Shown here one piece after another: positions 727-36,873 of a stretch of DNA of 64,000 bases. The translations under genes were made by a program, and so were the position numbers. Each line of letters opens with the position of its first letter. Position 1 is the stretch's first letter. The stretch comes from Capniomyces stellatus (Eukaryota; Kickxellomycota; Harpellomycetes; Harpellales; Legeriomycetaceae). Below the pieces are notes generated by a model. That model had not been told where the DNA came from and ran no database searches. It was given only the letters and a program-made list of their open reading frames with translations. The DNA lies in NCBI GenBank assembly GCA_001661515.1, contig LUVW01000015.1:769334-833333 (forward strand), in the 5' to 3' direction.

Positions 727-3526
727 AGTCCAAGGATTTAATTAATATGTTTTGCCTAGGCCGTCCTGAACTAAATAATAATATGCCTATCCTGTCCAAT
801 ATATCTCGAGCTGGAGAAGGATGTCGATATAGAATAATAATTTACAGTATAAAGGGTTGTAGATAGCTAAATGCCTAAATTCAATCAAAAGGGAATGTTC
901 AATTATATAGAGCCAAATGCATACAACACAACTGTATTTATAGGGTTTTTTTTTCAGTATCCATCTCATTTCTTTTCGTTTGTTTTTGGGGATGTTTTTG
1001 AGTTAGGATTTGGGTTTAGATTTGGATGTTGATATTGATGATGCTGTTGATTATGATGATGATGTTGGCGATATCAAAATATTTTTACCCAAGTGTATAT
1101 ACTTTGCAATAGTGAAATCAACATTATGGATACTATGTTTAGCAACAAAGTGAATGTGTTGCTATTGATATCGATTTCATTGTTGATAACCTGAATTAAA
1201 GTTTAATTAGCTGCGATTGTCTCCGTCATAATTATCATGAAGATGGCAGACTTGCAAAGCTGGATCCTGCTATCTAATTCGTGCCTTACTTTTCTTGTTC
1301 CAGTTCAGCTTTCATGAAATTTACAACATGACCTACTTTTTTTTTATTTCATTTGTAGCAATATCAAGTTTTTTTTATCACACTTTCAAGTATAGTAAAG
1401 CATAATTAAACTAATAAACGATGAACAAAAGGGAGTCGAAGAATAAAAACAATAACAAAAACAAAGACAAAGAAACTCAATAGTTGTAATATTCTTTTTA
1501 TTCTTCAAAACAAGTAAACCTGACAAAGGGTAAAGTCTCTTATTCTTCTCTTTACCTTCTTTACAAATGCGGTTATTCAAATCACCGAATATAATTACCA
1601 GTCCTAATCGACATTTCCACACATTATTCGTTTTCCTTCAAATTCTATCAAACAACCAAGTCGACTTCTTTTTTTGGCTAAATGTATGCTATTCCGAATA
1701 ATCAGCTAAAAATCAAGATTCTCAGAGGCACTTCATGCAATACATACCGGTTTCTGTACTTATTAGTTTCAGGTAAAAGTTGGCCATTATCTAACGATTG
1801 CTCACAATTGTGCAGCTGTTTTTTTTAATTGACATTAAGAAAGGAAAACTATGTGTTACTGTTTTTAATCCAGTAAGAAAAGCTACAAACAATCCACTAT
1901 TTCTTATTTTTATAACAATGGCCTTCTGAATCTATCCTTTTGTTTCAACAAAACATTGTTCGCATACTTTTTACTCCATTTAAAGCAAAGTAGGCTCCTC
2001 TTCATACTGAAGCAGGGCCCGCTCTTCCGGTTGCTGCAAATGACGTGGTGGCATGTCGAGTATTTTAGCACCTTGTCAAGTGTCGCACAATTGCTGCGAC
2101 TTTAATGGTAGCTTAGCGAGCAGAATCCGTGTTTTGCCGTTTGTTATACAATCTTGAATAGCTTAATATGTACACTTATACTACAACAAACCCGCATTTT
2201 AATGTTCAAGTAAATAAAGCAAAAAATGTTTTTTTTTTCTTTCTTCTTAATTAACTACAGTCACGATAATACAAAAGTTGACTTTATGGTATGTTATCAT
2301 TATTAGTATCATTATTGCCATTACTATTATTATTGTTATTTTCACTGCTATAGTACCATTATTGAAACAATATCTGGTTTTTAAAACGCCACAATATATG
2401 TTATTTGGGTGTTTAGTTGGAATACCAGTCGCAGATTAAATTTCAATACTATTTCTGTGTTATCAACCAGCCAGTGCCTTGGGACTTGGATAGAATTATA
2501 GCATAGAGTTGAGTAAATAAAAAAAACTACCAAAGTGACTAGGCACTCTATCACACCTTGTTAAAAGCAAACATGAGAGTGGTAAATTGGATTGGTGAGG
2601 AGACCATCTAAAATGTTAAAGTAAAATAGAAATTGTTACAAACTAGCACAACGAATGGGAAAGAGTTAGTGCGGATTACCAGTCGTCAACGCCTCTAAAC
2701 CACTTTTTGTTATGTTGTGCATGTAGCAACTGAGCTTGCAAGGGAAAAAAAATTTCAAAAAAAAAATAAACAACCCAAATATCAGTAATGATAATAATAA
2801 TAAACTAACAAACCAAGCTCGATTTATATATATATGTAAAGCCAAAACCACGCTTGGTATAGCACCAATTGGAATCGATACACAGGCCCAAAATTAAGCC
2901 AAATGTTTTGGCGTTTTGTACTGTACTGGATTTAACTTGTCTTGTGTGAACCATTTTGATCTTGTGCACAGCGAAATGATTGCACTAAAATATTGGAGTC
3001 ATCAAAATCTAAAGCAAATAGATAAAAAATACACATTCACTCGCATCTCGAGGAAAAGATAAGAAGCAATAAAAGCTATATCCATCCTGTCCAAAGATGA
3101 ATCGTGATACAAAGATGATTGAAATTAAATGAAAAGCGTGACCAAAACACAGAAATGTGAATGTATTTAACGCAAATTGCAGCAATACTAATAATAGTAG
3201 TAGTGGTAGTAGTAGCATTAATACTTTTCTTGACTTGGTAATAAACCAGAGGATTATTCTGCAACTGACTCTGGGTATACAAACCAGAACTGCAACTACA
3301 ATCAAATGTCCAATCCCTGAAATTTTAAAAATGAGTTTTTGTTGCCTTTCATTGAAACTGGAATAAGAACAAAATGCAAAAAGCAAAGAACAGCGTCATA
3401 TAAAGTAGCATCGGTTTTTCCATAGTCTTGCAGGTTTATTCAATAATCGACCAATACCTTTTTTATCAACCAACTTGTATAAATTCCAAATTTTAGTAGA
3501 AATAAAAACAGCTATTGGTAACCAGT
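727..3526. other. Long AT-rich intergenic region
   Basis: About 2.8 kb with only short frames of low-complexity hydrophobic composition, for example a Leu-rich frame at 3009-3386 on the minus strand. Poly-T/A tracts and trinucleotide-like runs occur near 1030-1070, 2290-2340 and 3185-3225. No gene, tRNA or mobile element could be supported. Confidence 0.5.
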
Positions 3527-5008
3527 ATGACTATCGAGATCGGGAACTCCAACTACACCCGCGAAGATAAACGCAGTCTCAGAGACACAGACACCGGGCA
3601 TATTAACTTGGAAGACCATGGTTTAAGCATTGATAACAAAGAACTAAAGAGTTACCAGAAATATATATTCTACATTATAATCAAGCTAGCAATTATAAGC
3701 TCCGCTGCTCAGCTAAACAATGGCGAAAAGGCCTCCGTTTTTAACAACATCAACAAATTGAACAACTACAAATATACTTCGACAAACTACAGCGGCTTGA
3801 TAAAAATAATTCTAACCGTGGTATTCTCATATCTCTCAGTTTTGCTATTTCACAAAATCAAGCCCAGACTGTATTTTTCTTTAGCAATGGTGTGTGCAGG
3901 AGTATTCATGGCCTGCCTAAGCGCAGCTTCGTCGCTTTCAGCAATCGCAATAGTTGACTGCATAACCAGCGTACTTGTTAGCGGAATAGTATATTCTTCC
4001 ATCATATATCTGTCGTTCTGGACAACCAGAGAGCAGATGGGCAAATGTGTGCTGGCATACTTTACGCTGACGGCAGCACTTAATACCATCACAGGCTTGG
4101 TGTCTCCGTACACCCTTTCCCCTATAATATACACTTCTAGCTCGCTTTTCACATTCAATATCGTTGCCGGGGTTTATATGGTAATTGTTGGAGTAGCAGC
4201 ATTCTTTGTTGTAGAAAATGGACCCGAAAATATAGAATATTGCTCGGAATCTGTCAGAAACATGGTTTTGGATAAACTAGAGAACAGCCAAGGACTCTCT
4301 TCAAAGGTCAAACTGGGAGCAAGAGAAACCTTCAGAATAGCATTCAACAAAAAACTATGGGTGTTTGTGGTCATTAACACCAGCAACTACCTAATGATGG
4401 CATTTGGGTTAAACTCCAGCTTTACTAGCATCAAACTCAGAATCAGCAACTATAGCGTTTCAGATTCGTTCAACATTGGGTCGCTATCGCCGCTTTCTAT
4501 ATTTGCTTTTACGCTACTCGCCTTTTTGCTAAGATCAGTTTCTTACTCGGTCAGAATTTTCTGTTTCCAGCTCTTGGCTGTTGCGGTTTGTTCCACATCT
4601 CTGGCAACATCCAAATCCTCTGGGTATGTGGCCAAAAGCACAATGGATACTCTGGTGGTAGGAGTGACCTCAGCCAACTCGGCTCTGGTCGCTTCCTGGA
4701 TGGCAATCAATTTGGGAAATATTCCAAACATTCTCGTATCCATTCCAGTTCTCGAATTGCTCACAACAATAGCACTGTTTATTGGTTCAGTATTGTTTGT
4801 TGTGACCTTTTCGGTTTCAGACATTTTTGGAATTATATTCGTTACTTTGGTGGCTATGGCCGGATTTGGAACAATATTCGCACTAAACAGGAGCTTTAAA
4901 AACAGAAACTCTGCCAAAGATGGCTCCTCTGAAGATGTCTCCAATCTCTCCAAGGATAAACAAAGAGAAATGGCGGACAACCATCCAAATTATAGATATT
5001 TACTTTAG
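3527..5008 (+). CDS. MFS transporter, anion:cation symporter (allantoate permease-like) family
   Basis: Predicted plasma-membrane carrier for a small organic anion such as allantoate, nicotinate or a vitamin; the substrate cannot be told. An intronless 493-aa frame starting at the ATG at 3527; the four codons upstream begin with TTG. It contains about twelve hydrophobic segments, beginning near YIFYIIIKLAII and separated mid-protein by a hydrophilic loop (about residues 230-270). The C-terminus ends in NHPNYRYLL, which matches the short NPxFRYxL-type tail common in fungal allantoate/nicotinate permeases. That tail and the length (about 500 aa) are the main family evidence. The first half is divergent and lacks an obvious canonical inter-TM2-3 motif. 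It stands alone, with the minus-strand selenoprotein H gene convergent downstream. Confidence 0.75.
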   Translation: MTIEIGNSNYTREDKRSLRDTDTGHINLEDHGLSIDNKELKSYQKYIFYIIIKLAIISSAAQLNNGEKASVFNNINKLNNYKYTSTNYSGLIKIILTVVFSYLSVLLFHKIKPRLYFSLAMVCAGVFMACLSAASSLSAIAIVDCITSVLVSGIVYSSIIYLSFWTTREQMGKCVLAYFTLTAALNTITGLVSPYTLSPIIYTSSSLFTFNIVAGVYMVIVGVAAFFVVENGPENIEYCSESVRNMVLDKLENSQGLSSKVKLGARETFRIAFNKKLWVFVVINTSNYLMMAFGLNSSFTSIKLRISNYSVSDSFNIGSLSPLSIFAFTLLAFLLRSVSYSVRIFCFQLLAVAVCSTSLATSKSSGYVAKSTMDTLVVGVTSANSALVASWMAINLGNIPNILVSIPVLELLTTIALFIGSVLFVVTFSVSDIFGIIFVTLVAMAGFGTIFALNRSFKNRNSAKDGSSEDVSNLSKDKQREMADNHPNYRYLL

Positions 5009-5432
5009 CTTTGTCATTATTGAGCGTTTGTAAACTCAGAATAAAGAAACCACCTGATTTGCTTAACATACTGGCTTTATAATTACCAATAGCTCGGTGT
5101 TAGCCAATGTTTTTTTTTCAAATATTGGGACTATGTTCCTTGAAATGCTATTTGTTTTCAATCTACTCGAGCTGGTGCGGGTTATGTAATATAAACTGAT
5201 TTTTTATTTATATCATTTAATGACTTGGAAGCAAACATGTATGCAAAGCCTAGAAAATTCAAGTACTGCATTGCAACAGTGTAAACACAACCTAAATACC
5301 TCGATAGAAATCTGCGTAGAATCAATGGTATAGAACCAATGGTCTGTCCGATAGTATACATATATATATATAATATCAGCCAGTATATGCTACAGAAAAT
5401 ACCTCGTGGTTATTTGTGATATGAGACTGTTA
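5009..5432. other. Intergenic region between converging genes
   Basis: Lies between the MFS transporter (+) and the selenoprotein H 3' UTR (-). It holds an AT dinucleotide run near 5358-5373 and nothing else that can be supported. Confidence 0.4.
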
Positions 5433-5500
5433 TAAATTTACAATGCCTCCTGACTATGACCCTAAAGTGTTTGTACTTGGGCCAGCTAATCAAGAATTTA
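5433..5500 (-). promoter_or_regulatory. Candidate SECIS element in the selenoprotein H 3' UTR
   Basis: SECIS hairpins recode UGA as selenocysteine. On the minus strand, 80-150 nt past the stop codon, the pattern TTGAT (5493-5489), then 11 nt, then AA, then 25 nt, then GGA (5450-5448) matches the spacing of a eukaryotic SECIS (TGA / apical AA / GA). The stem between them has a strong core, TGGCCC with GGGTCA, and the loop region AAGT/ACTT can pair further. Below the core, TAAATT (5500-5495) pairs with AATTTA (5438-5433). Odd points: the 5' core reads TTGA rather than the usual ATGA/GTGA, and helix II has mismatches towards its base. Position and strand are right. The fold was done by eye. Confidence 0.4.
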
Positions 5501-5578
5501 ATACTGTCATATAGATTGCATATCTTAGTGAGCCGACAAATAATTGGAACAAGGAATCACAATACAAAAACTGGAGAG

Positions 5579-6281
5579 TTATTTTGCATTCAAAACCGAG
5601 TCAATAAGAACTTGTAGAACCTCGATAGTAGGGAATTTTAACTTCCTAGGAGGACCCATCTTGATCCCGCTCCAAACAACTTGCTCTAAAAGTTAAAAAA
5701 AAGTCAACAAACCCATATTTTACCTTCGAGGAATCCAAACAAGATAGCAATAACGCTTGTATACGTCTTTTCGGCTAAACAAAAACAATATCGCTGTACT
5801 TACTTTGATTCCCATTGGAGATTGTAATTTCAAAAGATTTACTGCGAGGCTTGCTTTCGTTATACTTGAATGCAAAAACGCCTGGATAAACCGTGTCGAC
5901 TGCTTTTGATATTTTCAATGCATTCGACTTGTACGTAGATCAGGAAACACAGTGCTCAATGTAGAACAAATGTTGGCCTCCTGGTGATTCATTTCTCAAA
6001 CCAAGAGTTTCCACGGTGCTATCCCTGGCTTGCTTGACACAAGTTTCTGCATTGTTGGTGTTATCCGTGGCATCCTCGGTCTTCATACCTGTGCCTTTTG
6101 CATCTTTAGCTTCGGGGAAAGGCTTAGAGCCAGATCTGTTTGTTTTCTTTTTGGTATCTTTGTTAATTGAAGAACCAGCGTTTTTGATTGTTTTGTTTAT
6201 GACATTGTTCTTGCTGCTGGTCTCCTCCTTCTTTGTTGAGGGCTTTTCCTTGGGGCTTTTCTGGCTCCTAGTCGTCACCAT
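5579..6281 (-). CDS. SELENOH: Selenoprotein H with in-frame UGA (selenocysteine), 194 aa
   Basis: Nuclear thioredoxin-fold (Rdx family) redox protein. Exons 6281-5804 and 5685-5579, one 118-bp GTAAGT...TTTTAG intron; 585 nt in phase. A plain reading stops at UGA (5942-5940), but that codon sits exactly at the redox motif: IEHCVS-UGA matches the IEHCTSU of animal selenoprotein H (CxxU). The frame continues past it with family features: a KPRSKSFEITIS strand and, after the intron, VVWSGIKMGPPRKLKFP, nearly the animal WTGIKKGPPRKLKFP block. Sec is residue 114. The N-terminal ~100 residues are Lys-rich and disordered, like the basic nuclear N-terminus of the animal protein but longer. UGA serves as a normal stop in other genes here. 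A candidate SECIS lies downstream. Pseudogene is unlikely because frame, splice sites and motifs beyond the UGA are intact. Confidence 0.9.
5940..5942 (-). other. UGA codon predicted to be read as selenocysteine (Sec114)
   Basis: TGA on the minus strand, preceded by Cys-Val-Ser and followed by at least 80 codons of conserved selenoprotein H sequence. It occupies the position of Sec (Cys in non-Sec homologues) of the CxxU motif. Confidence 0.88.
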
Positions 6282-33114: not shown

Positions 33115-34289
33115 TTCTAATTTGTTATTCAAGCTACAGGATAATGTTTAAAAAGAATGGTAAATTATGTTTCAAACAAGGTTCAAAAGATGTTTGATTA
33201 TTTTTACCGGTTTATTTGTTCTTTTATGCTTTATTTTAACTTGGGATTTTTCAGCTCTTTTTATCTTTCAACTCAATTACTAATTTTTACTCTTTTTCTT
33301 CATAAAAATTAAAGTTGGCTATTTAATTCAATAAAAAAAGGTTTAAGTTTGTTCACATTTGATTTAATTTGATTAAATTGGGATTTAATACGAAACTGTA
33401 GTTGATTTTGCCATTAATTCTTACTCACTTTATTCGTCTTGAACTTGAAACAATCCACAACTATCCTGGTGGTGACAAAAGCAATATCAATGAACTGACT
33501 TGTGGTTAACCAATACTTTCTGAACTATACTGAACATTTATGTTTGAGTTGTTTCTTTTCAAAGCTATACTATCTTTTATTTTCTTCAAGCTTGTACACC
33601 AATAACACCAAGGTGCTATCACACAATACAAGAGTATGAAACATTGTAATGTACCAGAAAAATTGAGATATACCAGTATACTATGACATACTTGCAAGCT
33701 TGTATCCGCCAGCGTCTGTGGTATTTGTAACTACACGCTATTTTGGAAATTTTGATATTGCAAAACTGTGATGTTGAGTCATTTGCTGCTGAATTAAATT
33801 GGTATCTGCATTAATATATAAGTGTTCCTTGGTTTATTGCCTGGCCTTGCTGTCCAGGATAGAATTGATATACACTTTTCAATGCTTGGGATGGTATTTT
33901 TTTTTGGTGACAAGCTCGTATTGATCTCAAGTCAAAAACAATCGGTTTCAATTCGATTCCGTTTTAAAAAATTATACTCGAACCTGAATCGCGCCAATGA
34001 AATAGTTACAAACGGCACGGATTTCAAAGTTTGGATATTCAAAAACCAAATTTTTGAGAAAAAAAAAGACTAGCGGTGTTAATCTGCGTTTATTTATTGT
34101 TTTAAACTCCAAATTGAAATCACAACACATTTTAGAATCAATTTCTGAATCCAAATTTACCATTTATACTCAAAATTCTAAAGGAATAAGTGAGACCGCC
34201 AAACAATTGTATTTCTGTTATAGCAAGAAGGACTGAGGAACAAGCAGGAAATTCAAGTATATCGTTGTTTTGGTTACGAGATTTGGAGT
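33115..34289. other. Divergent intergenic region
   Basis: Shared 5' region of uroporphyrinogen decarboxylase (-) and GatB (+). Small frames only, no feature supported. Confidence 0.4.
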
Positions 34290-36873
34290 ATGGCAGTTTC
34301 AAATTGTTTCAGCATTCGTTGCCATCGATTGGAAAAGCAAGGAATGAGACGATTGTGTAGCAATTCAGGGCGTGTTGACTTTTTGAATATGAGAAGATAC
34401 TCTCCGATAGCTATTTACGCGGAAAAATCTTTAAGGAATAAATACATTCCAGTAATCGGGTTGGAAATACATGCACAGATACAAAGTGATAAAAAGCTAT
34501 TCTCAGGTACTTGAACTTGATGTTTATAATAGGCGAGAGTTTCCTTTTAAATAAAAGGAAATAAACTAGTTTGAATCAATAATAAGAAACATTAAACGAT
34601 GTATAATTCAAAGCAAAGAAATAAAACGCTCTAGTGATTAGGTTCCAAATAAAAATGTATAGTATAAATTAACACCTCTGATTAGGCTCGAGTACGCGGT
34701 GGGATAAGAAGGAAAACAGCCAAATAAATGAGTTTGATCTTTCGACGCCAGGTTCCATGCCAGTGAGTGCATAACCTTTCCACTATTTCGGAAAAAATGT
34801 GATTTGTTTCGAATACCCAAGTATATCTGATTTTAAATATATGTCTACAGAAACTGAATAGAGATGCAGTTTATAAATCAGCATTGGCTGTATTGGCTTT
34901 AAATGGCACAATACAGAGGGAGTCTTATTTTGAAAGGAAGCATTATTTCTACCCCGACCAACCGCTTGGCTACCAAATTACACAGCAAAGAGGTAAGTAT
35001 ACATTTCTGCAACACGTAGAAATAAGAGTAAACGTAGAATGAGAATAAGAACGTACTTATTGTAGGAATATTTGTATTTCATTTCAAGTTTAACATGAAA
35101 ATATTACTGGCGCAATGTTGAAAAATCAGCACCAATAGGAAAAGGTGGACATGTGACATTGACTAAAGAGGACGGTTTACCAGAGCCTCACGAAATAAGA
35201 ATCCATCAGATTCAGATTGAACAGGTACAAAAAAAAGCCGGTTAGCTTTAGTGAAAATGTTTACTGTGATTTAATTGTTGGAGCAAATATGTCATTTTCG
35301 GCATATTGTTTAAATAACGCACACTTAACATATACACCAAGATTGAGAGTGTATTTATTACTATTATAAAACTAGGATACAGCGAAAACAGTAAACGATT
35401 TAGTTCCTGGTTGTGGATTGATAGATTATAATCGAGCAGGTGTTGGGTTGATGGAGATAATTACCAAGCCTGATATTAGGTAGGGTTGGTACAATAAATT
35501 TCTAGGCTAATATTGTGTCAATATCCATTTTAACGAATAAGATTTGTATGATTTGTATGATTTGTATGATTTGTATGATTGATATAATTGATATGGTTGA
35601 TATAATTGACATGATTTGTATGATTGATATGATTGATATGATTTGTATATGTTTAGAAACTCCAAAGAAGCAGCACTGTTTCTACAGAAAACAGCACAAA
35701 TTTTACAGCTTACGGGATCCTCAAAAGCATTAATGGAGGAGGGTTCGTTTAGATGCGATGTAAATGTTTCTGTGGTGCCAATAACCAATTCGGATAGGCC
35801 TGGTTATGAAGAGTATATAAGGTCAGGCGTAAGATGCGAAGTTAAAAATTTAAACTCAATAAAGTCTGTTATTGGCGCAATTGAGTCAGAGATAGACAGG
35901 CAGATTGGTTGCTTGGAGGCTGGTGATACCATTAAGCAAGAGACTCGGAACTATGACATAGATTCTAAAAAGACAATTAAAAGCCGAAGCAAAGAGTCTT
36001 CGCCTGATTACAGGTAATACAACCCATACGAACTGATAAGTAAAGTCAGGCTAACATTTGTCACATAAATGGCTATATGGGTTTTGGATATAATTAAACC
36101 AAATTAACACAGTCTGAATTGGCTGGAGATAGGTTTATTATTGAGGCGGACATGCCAAAAATAAATCTAACAGAGGAGTGGATTGAAAAGGTAAAGAGCA
36201 GGTTGCCCGAATTGCCTGATTCTATACGTGCCCGGCTGGCATCCATGTATGGGTTAACGTCTACTGAAATAGCTGTGCTATTTACCGACCCCGGAAGCAT
36301 AGACTTTTTAGATGAAACCGCAAAACTAGATATCGATCCACGCAAAGCCTACAATTGGTAAACATTATTGCACCAACTGGGTAGTGCTTGTATGTCATTG
36401 CACTCTTGTGATTTTGGCACGAATTAAATGGTATATAACCGCGCTAAACTGTATTAAATTGTTTTAAACGTAGGATTACTGTCGAGATTTTTGGCCTTGT
36501 AAACTATAACAAACTCAGGTTTAAGGACATTTCTATAAAGCCCTTTGAGTTGGCGGAGCTGATTAGGTCTATCGACAACTCGCAAATATCAACTTTGATA
36601 GCCAAAAAGGTTCTGTTAGCCAAGTTTGATGGCGACTCTAGATCTCCCCTAGAAATAGCCAGGACCAACAACTGGATAGTCAACCAAGACACGGACATGT
36701 TACTGGCGCTATGCAGCAAAGTGCTGGCGGAAAATCCTGGGGAAGTTGCTAAATATCGCGAAACCAAAAACAAACGATTGTTGGGTTTTTTTATAGGCCA
36801 AGCCATCAAAAAATCAATGGGAAATGCTAAACCACAATCTATCTCGGAGGTTTTATCCAAACTCCTAAGCTAA
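34290..36873 (+). CDS. GATB: Glutamyl-tRNA(Gln) amidotransferase subunit B, mitochondrial, 538 aa
   Basis: Subunit of the mitochondrial GatCAB/GatFAB complex (yeast Pet112) that converts Glu-tRNA(Gln) to Gln-tRNA(Gln). Eight exons: 34290-34506, 34686-34762, 34851-34992, 35130-35224, 35376-35479, 35657-36013, 36133-36357, 36474-36873 (1617 nt in phase). An Arg-rich presequence (residues 1-50) precedes [21 protein letters not shown]. Then follow the PGSMPKLNRDAV segment (made by exons 2-3), [61 protein letters not shown] and [14 protein letters not shown]. The C-terminal tail domain is complete ([14 protein letters not shown]). Intron 5 holds a minisatellite. The heavily split 5' half means no single ORF shows the gene. 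Confidence 0.94.
35541..35650 (+). repeat. GATTTGTAT/GATTGATAT minisatellite in GatB intron 5
   Basis: Four exact 9-bp GATTTGTAT-type units followed by variant GATTGATAT/GATATAATT units. Confidence 0.85.

Follow-up and report, generated by a model that had tools for sequence, protein, structure and literature searches.

Is a UGA codon in the middle of an otherwise open fungal reading frame the end of a gene, or is it read as selenocysteine (Sec)? The frame in question lies on the minus strand of the window, i.e. the whole stretch of 64,000 nucleotides analysed here, and resembles selenoprotein H (SelenoH), whose animal form is a redox protein of the thioredoxin-like CxxU type, basic at its N-terminus and probably nuclear. 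We suggest that the locus is very probably a working selenoprotein H gene whose UGA codon 114 would be read as selenocysteine by a Sec machinery encoded in the same genome. The features of the gene are as follows:

5579-6281, minus strand: SelenoH coding region in two exons, 194 codons with the UGA, TAA stop; exactly the interval marked by the first-pass annotation, which named no strand.
5804..6281, minus strand: exon 1, with the ATG at 6281 and a lysine-rich N-terminal part followed by LFYIEHCVS-U-STYKSNALKI.
5940..5942, minus strand: in-frame UGA, codon 114, at the CxxU site C-V-S-U; presumed selenocysteine codon.
5686..5803, minus strand: intron of 118 nt, GTAAGT...TTTTAG, phase 1, placed by splice consensus and the restored frame.
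5579..5685, minus strand: exon 2, which begins KQVVWSGIKMGPPRKLKFP and closes ...VLNAK, with TAA at 5581-5579.

Exon 1 reads MVTTRSQ...HLFYIEHCVS up to the TGA at 5942-5940 and continues as STYKSNALKI...ITISNGNQ to the donor GTAAGT at 5803. The C-V-S-UGA stretch occupies 5951-5940, so the UGA sits at the U position of CxxU. In exon 2, GIKMGPPRKLKFP corresponds to the GPPRKLKFP-type C-terminal motif, and the N-terminus is, by eye, rich in lysine, two features that set SelenoH apart from SelT and SelW; VVWSGIKMGPPRKLKFP lies near the C-terminal end of the 194-residue protein. The resemblance to animal SELENOH (Rdx / SelT-SelW-SelH) extends to CxxU after IEHC, the GPPRKLKFP C-terminal motif and the basic N-terminus. 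Unlike the animal protein, the fungal one carries a tail of about 100 residues N-terminal to the domain, and no canonical SECIS element was recognised with its gene.

Profile searches support this reading on both sides of the stop. The spliced protein, with C written for U, matched TIGR02174 (CXXU_selWTH) with 44.2 bits (E 1.7e-11), above the curated cut-off of 34.2, and the alignment joins SelenoH residues 108-187 to positions 3-72 of the 74 in the profile, spanning both the UGA and the splice. The 80 residues 3' of the UGA gave E 5e-8 and 33.1 bits with this family when searched alone, just below its cut-off; the 113 residues before the UGA had no NCBIfam match up to E 1. The claim of the first-pass annotation that the frame stops right after IEHCVS and goes on beyond the UGA as selenoprotein H is therefore confirmed. 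Its description of the intron as in-phase is wrong: the intron is of phase 1, and the open frame consequently shifts across it. Pfam Rdx (PF10262) matched weakly, with 19.4 bits against a cut-off of 22.6, and the unspliced gene scored 30 bits with TIGR02174 in the genome search, also below the cut-off. The PDB sequence search returned no match at E up to 10, and a protein database search with residues 90-194 yielded nine candidates, none at E up to 1. No second SelenoH, in Cys form or otherwise, was found in the genome: the search with TIGR02174 and that with the protein itself gave one hit each, both at the gene described here.

The UGA would be irrelevant if it were removed from the message by a small intron, and by eye there are GT and AG dinucleotides in exon 1 that could delete an in-frame stretch of 48 nt around it. 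These sites, however, lack the GTAAGT donor of the other SelenoH intron, and their use would cost the protein its CxxU signature and the profile-matched residues behind it. We consider such splicing so improbable that it can hardly compete with the reading of codon 114 as Sec.

UGA is not generally reassigned. As had been stated for the other genes of the window, it serves them as an ordinary stop: TGA ends 7 of the 24 stop-to-stop frames of at least 200 codons (a set that includes antisense frames), the longest of them having 2149 and 450 codons, and in six of the seven the next stop follows within 46 codons. The seventh, at about 53601 of the window (minus strand), has 184 open codons after its TGA; it is antisense to the plus-strand frame of 2149 codons and was rejected as a selenoprotein candidate.

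Incorporation of Sec requires more than a codon, and the window's own assembly (24,510,316 bases in 59 contigs) was searched for the remaining parts. The first-pass annotation had predicted tRNA-Sec, SecS, PSTK, SPS2, SBP2 and eEFSec. Five of these are well supported, including all four (tRNA-Sec, eEFSec, SecS, SPS2) for which it had proposed a genome search; PSTK is weakly supported, by a match far below the NCBIfam cut-off. The possibility that the machinery is absent from the assembly is thereby contradicted.

The gene for tRNA-Sec is represented by a single Rfam match above the gathering score (64.1 bits versus 47), full-length and with the anticodon tca, and ARAGORN calls tRNA-SeC at the same place. 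In a published benchmark, none of 42 fungi assumed to lack Sec gave a false positive with this Rfam model, but ARAGORN had many false positives in fungi (PMC5330540). The other eight of the nine hits of the tRNA-Sec model stay below the gathering score (39.4 and 37.2 bits), and the two loci that were scanned are tRNA-Ser(tga). Seven of the hits (L002 to L008, at position 1501-1581 of each) have the same score, 39.4 bits. In L002 and L008 the tRNA-Ser(tga) stands beside a tRNA-Gly(gcc), which suggests that a tRNA-Ser(tga)/tRNA-Gly(gcc) pair is dispersed in the genome.

For SepSecS, all four Pfam matches are collinear, lie on one strand and exceed the cut-off; one of them runs across a TAA, taken as an exon border. 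Since 3 of 14 control genomes also exceed the cut-off of this Pfam model, one exon was searched against solved structures. All seven matches at E up to 0.01 were to a single molecule, O-phosphoseryl-tRNA(Sec) selenium transferase, the exon reaching E 3.6e-20 with it. The third domain of eEFSec exceeds its cut-off here and in none of the 14 control genomes, and the best solved relative is a Sec-specific elongation factor (E 1.3e-20). The candidate for PSTK is a P-loop protein of 440 residues, for which the best NCBIfam family is selen_PSTK_euk, at 39.7 bits versus a cut-off of 382. It also matches Pfam KTI12 (38.5 bits, cut-off 22), and in the PDB, up to E 1, it matched nothing but a different kinase, weakly (E 0.12). 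We regard it as a probable PSTK.

The selenophosphate synthetase adds a second UGA gene:

L016:4150-4148, minus strand: in-frame UGA of SPS2 in WRLTSYSGLKG-UGA-GCKG; the TAG stop of the gene is at 2578-2576.

The selD/SPS family is represented by three exon matches to TIGR00476, scored exon by exon and each below the whole-protein cut-off; compared with solved structures, one SPS2 frame matched selenophosphate synthetases (E 1.2e-42). The WRLTSYSGLKG-UGA-GCKG stretch lies upstream of the matched frame on the same strand, in an exon that, judged by eye, probably ends a few codons after the UGA. We take the UGA in LKG-UGA-GCKG, placed by its sequence motif, to be the Sec position of SPS2. Among other selenoprotein families, GPx was searched for; neither of its two matches in the genome has an internal stop.

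These findings bear on the view that the SelenoH gene is decaying, or that its UGA is an assembly error for TGC or TGT, so that the true product is either a Cys form or a truncated protein of 113 residues. The lack of a recognised canonical SECIS would fit such a view. Against it, the frame is otherwise intact through two exons with good splice sites, the UGA falls exactly at the CxxU site, SPS2 of the same genome has a UGA of its own, and the Sec machinery is present. Decay or error thus seems very unlikely, and we favour the reading of the UGA as a Sec codon.

SelenoH with its UGA, tRNA-Sec, SepSecS, eEFSec, SBP2 and the UGA-bearing SPS2 can be read directly from the DNA; the decoding steps that would connect them are taken from the known eukaryotic pathway. 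According to this pathway, Ser-tRNA-Sec would be phosphorylated by PSTK, and SepSecS would then make Sec-tRNA-Sec with selenophosphate supplied by SPS2. eEFSec would bring Sec-tRNA-Sec to UGA codon 114, aided by an SBP2 that binds a 3' UTR structure. The resulting protein is predicted to be a redox protein of the thioredoxin-like CxxU type, with an N-terminus that is basic and probably nuclear.

Sec insertion in eukaryotes is expected to depend on a SECIS element in the 3' UTR, whose canonical form contains a k-turn with a UGA/GA quartet. The recoding signal of SelenoH is not recognisable as such an element. The Rfam model RF00031 gave no genome match up to E 10 (of 362 first-look candidates, 132 were scored), none in the window at the gathering score, and none within 4300-5950 at E up to 10. 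Scans of our own, which looked for TGA/GA or GA/GA on the two sides of a stem and are uncalibrated on animal SECIS elements, found no outstanding site of SECIS geometry beside SelenoH or SPS2. Applied to the SelenoH message, with exon 1 and the 100 nt that precede its ATG, the scan returned a single weak site, which lies within exon 2. Behind SPS2, at +270, there is a k-turn-like site whose loop lacks AA and CC, and another lies in the end of the SPS2 coding region; such sites occur in 31% of 100 background pieces. Directly 3' of the SelenoH UGA there is a modest fold (z -2.07, reached by 7 of 200 shuffles).

Convergent with SelenoH, the plus strand carries a stop-to-stop frame of 500 codons (window 3506-5008) with many hydrophobic stretches, resembling a membrane transporter; the stop codons of the two are about 570 nt apart. 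A TGA/GA stem at +759 behind the SelenoH stop (window 4819-4751, minus strand; -26.2) has 29 nt from the TGA to the loop AA. It was the strongest site of its scan and lies below the first percentile of a 500-nt background, and 3 of 118 window pieces of 1078 nt contain one as strong. It was set aside as a SECIS on account of its 29-nt spacing, its position antisense to the convergent frame and its match by these 3 pieces.

The most stable structure of 56 nt within 440 nt behind the SelenoH stop is a different one:

5447..5496, minus strand: candidate recoding hairpin, starting at +83 behind the SelenoH stop; -19.3 kcal/mol, z -4.24.

It has a 10-bp stem, a 2-nt 5' bulge, a second stem with a 2-nt 3' bulge, and a 6-nt loop, ACAAAC. 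Behind the stop of SPS2, the most stable short hairpin starts at +90 (-17.0, z -3.18). Both consist of two stems, bulged on the 5' side where they meet and on the 3' side within the upper one, and are capped by loops of 6 or 7 nt. Compared with the canonical SECIS (RF00031), the SelenoH candidate is similar in its place behind the stop, its two stems, its junction bulge and the AAA in its loop; it differs in having no UGA/GA quartet, its junction being closed by Watson-Crick and G-U pairs.

Are these hairpins a signal, or chance structures while the true signal lies elsewhere, be it a canonical SECIS that is weak or a coding-region structure? Taken alone, the SelenoH hairpin is equalled in stability by 2 of 100 shuffles and by 5.8% of 156 window pieces. 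The SPS2 hairpin alone is unremarkable, with 14 of 100 shuffles and 20.5% of the 156 pieces as stable, which favours chance. Stability and position taken together are, on the other hand, rare: two hairpins of -17 or better whose starting distances differ by no more than 8 nt were seen in 37 of 90000 shuffled pairs and in 11 of 8001 pairs of real window pieces. The same joint test by energy sum gave 0.06% for shuffled and 0.22% for real pieces, where pairs share pieces and are not independent. Among 43 other regions behind open frames, which are mechanical frames and not all gene ends, seven have equal or better stability (two of them behind the GPx matches), one has the position, and none joins the two. 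As the criteria were chosen after the hairpins had been seen, which itself speaks for chance, these statistics serve as a lead only.

Sequence comparison of the two 3' UTRs likewise leans towards chance, as their near-diagonal similarity is reached by 30 and 33 of 200 shuffles. When anchored at the junction, the 5' arms agree at 14 of 25 positions (binomial 0.0013), or at 14 of 28 (0.0042), over a stretch picked post hoc, and the 3' arms at only 7 of 19. A MAFFT alignment was incompatible with the structures of the two hairpins taken together and gave no basis for a covariance model. A genome-wide search with the shared 5'-arm pattern revealed no third gene: the two exact matches are the source genes, and four places have one mismatch, i.e. 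six places at up to one mismatch versus 11 for a reversed control. Of these four, three fold weakly (-1.4, -4.1 and -7.1 kcal/mol) and the one in L042 is another simple hairpin (-11.2). Upstream of them, short TGA-interrupted frames were seen at three of the four, a survey that says little since it missed both source genes.

Taking into account also the other sites mentioned above (+759 of SelenoH, +270 and the coding end of SPS2, SelenoH exon 2 and the fold after the UGA), we regard a chance origin of the two hairpins as somewhat the likelier explanation. The hairpin at 5496-5447 is nevertheless the best candidate for the SelenoH recoding signal, put forward here as a putative one and as a lead only. 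Most fungal selenoproteins reportedly lack consensus SECIS elements and have other RNA structures instead, as the abstract of Mariotti et al. 2019 is said to state, and the +83/+90 hairpins may be among the structures of that study. Our literature search found nothing that joins SECIS with Harpellales and no use of the phrase 'fungal SECIS'; 'fungal selenoproteins' occurred in none of the matches listed, and no description of a shared element at +83/+90 was seen.

The protein expected to bind such a signal is encoded in the genome as well. The SBP2 homolog was identified by an L7Ae domain in a frame of 786 codons. Over residues 6-144 this frame aligns with 7zjw_B, a solved SBP2 chain, at E 2.8e-22, far ahead of the next best matches, ribosomal L7Ae proteins (0.018). 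FQxR and KAKTK are kept in its RNA-binding domain, where FQxR stands at the place of the RFQDR motif said to be required for Sec incorporation (PMC2746813). Upstream of this domain there is another frame, with a likely intron between them (GTGAGT donor). The full upstream exon has no PDB match up to E 10. For a 56-residue piece of it, picked by eye, the PDB search gave a single match, to SBP2 503-542, at the weak E value of 0.15. The core of the Sec-incorporation domain (SID) of SBP2 is given as K517-R543 (PMC2746813), and the piece is, on this weak similarity, probably the SID core of the fungal protein.

The frame of the SBP2 homolog (L031:2337-4688; contig C32, about 33336-35687) continues uninterrupted after the L7Ae domain into ankyrin-like matches. 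Ank_2 (27.5 bits versus 27.3) and Ank_3 (22.7 versus 22.3) are barely over their cut-offs, and Ank and Ank_5 are below theirs. The fungal protein shares the L7Ae-type RNA-binding domain with SBP2 (7zjw_B) and adds about 640 residues behind it. We know of no SBP2 with an ankyrin tail. Among the literature matches listed there was no description of an SBP2 with ankyrin repeats, and the main text of PMC2746813 does not contain the word 'ankyrin'. A protein database search with the fungal SBP2 gave one homolog (7995 candidates scored), and neither this search nor that with SelenoH yielded a recognisable Harpellales relative; the predicted structure of the frame had a pLDDT of 33 and was set aside. 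It can be imagined that this lineage swapped the canonical SECIS for a quartet-less hairpin 83-90 nt past the stop, read by an SBP2 with an ankyrin tail. Such linked changes would constitute a new variant of eukaryotic UGA recoding; we consider this proposal doubtful.

Selenoprotein H of Harpellales fungi was reportedly dealt with in 2019 by Mariotti et al., as described in PMC12611240. The suggestion of the first-pass annotation that Sec is used in a few early-diverging fungal lineages agrees with the literature (PMC10778597, PMC11378755, PMC12611240). Sec use in nine early-branching fungi has been in print since 2019, as cited in PMC10778597 and PMC11378755, which softens the surprise that the locus might otherwise cause. 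According to PMC10386755, seven of the nine Sec-using species belong to the Harpellales, and PMC12611240 describes the Sec machinery and SelenoH as common to this order, with RNA-seq said to show expression. The gene reported here resembles the Harpellales SelenoH of PMC12611240 in that a Sec-bearing SelenoH and the Sec machinery occur together in an early-branching fungus. In comparison with Zancudomyces culisetae, the GC content is 36.6% (this window) versus 35.56% and the genome size 24.5 versus 27.2 Mb, values in keeping with a Harpellales genome from an insect gut. The gene is accordingly a further member of a known fungal kind, perhaps one that has already been listed.

Sec use by fungi was denied until 2019 and can be overlooked even now; PMC8559351 still states, in 2021, that fungi lack Sec. 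The main interest of the present case lies in the missing canonical SECIS alongside an SBP2 that has kept its RNA-binding domain. How UGA can be recoded in a eukaryote that has no recognisable SECIS may be studied well in this genome, which is fairly contiguous and contains both the machinery and two UGA genes. Should the +83/+90 hairpin prove to be the signal, setting it beside the standard SECIS would reveal what SBP2 can do without in its contact with a SECIS.
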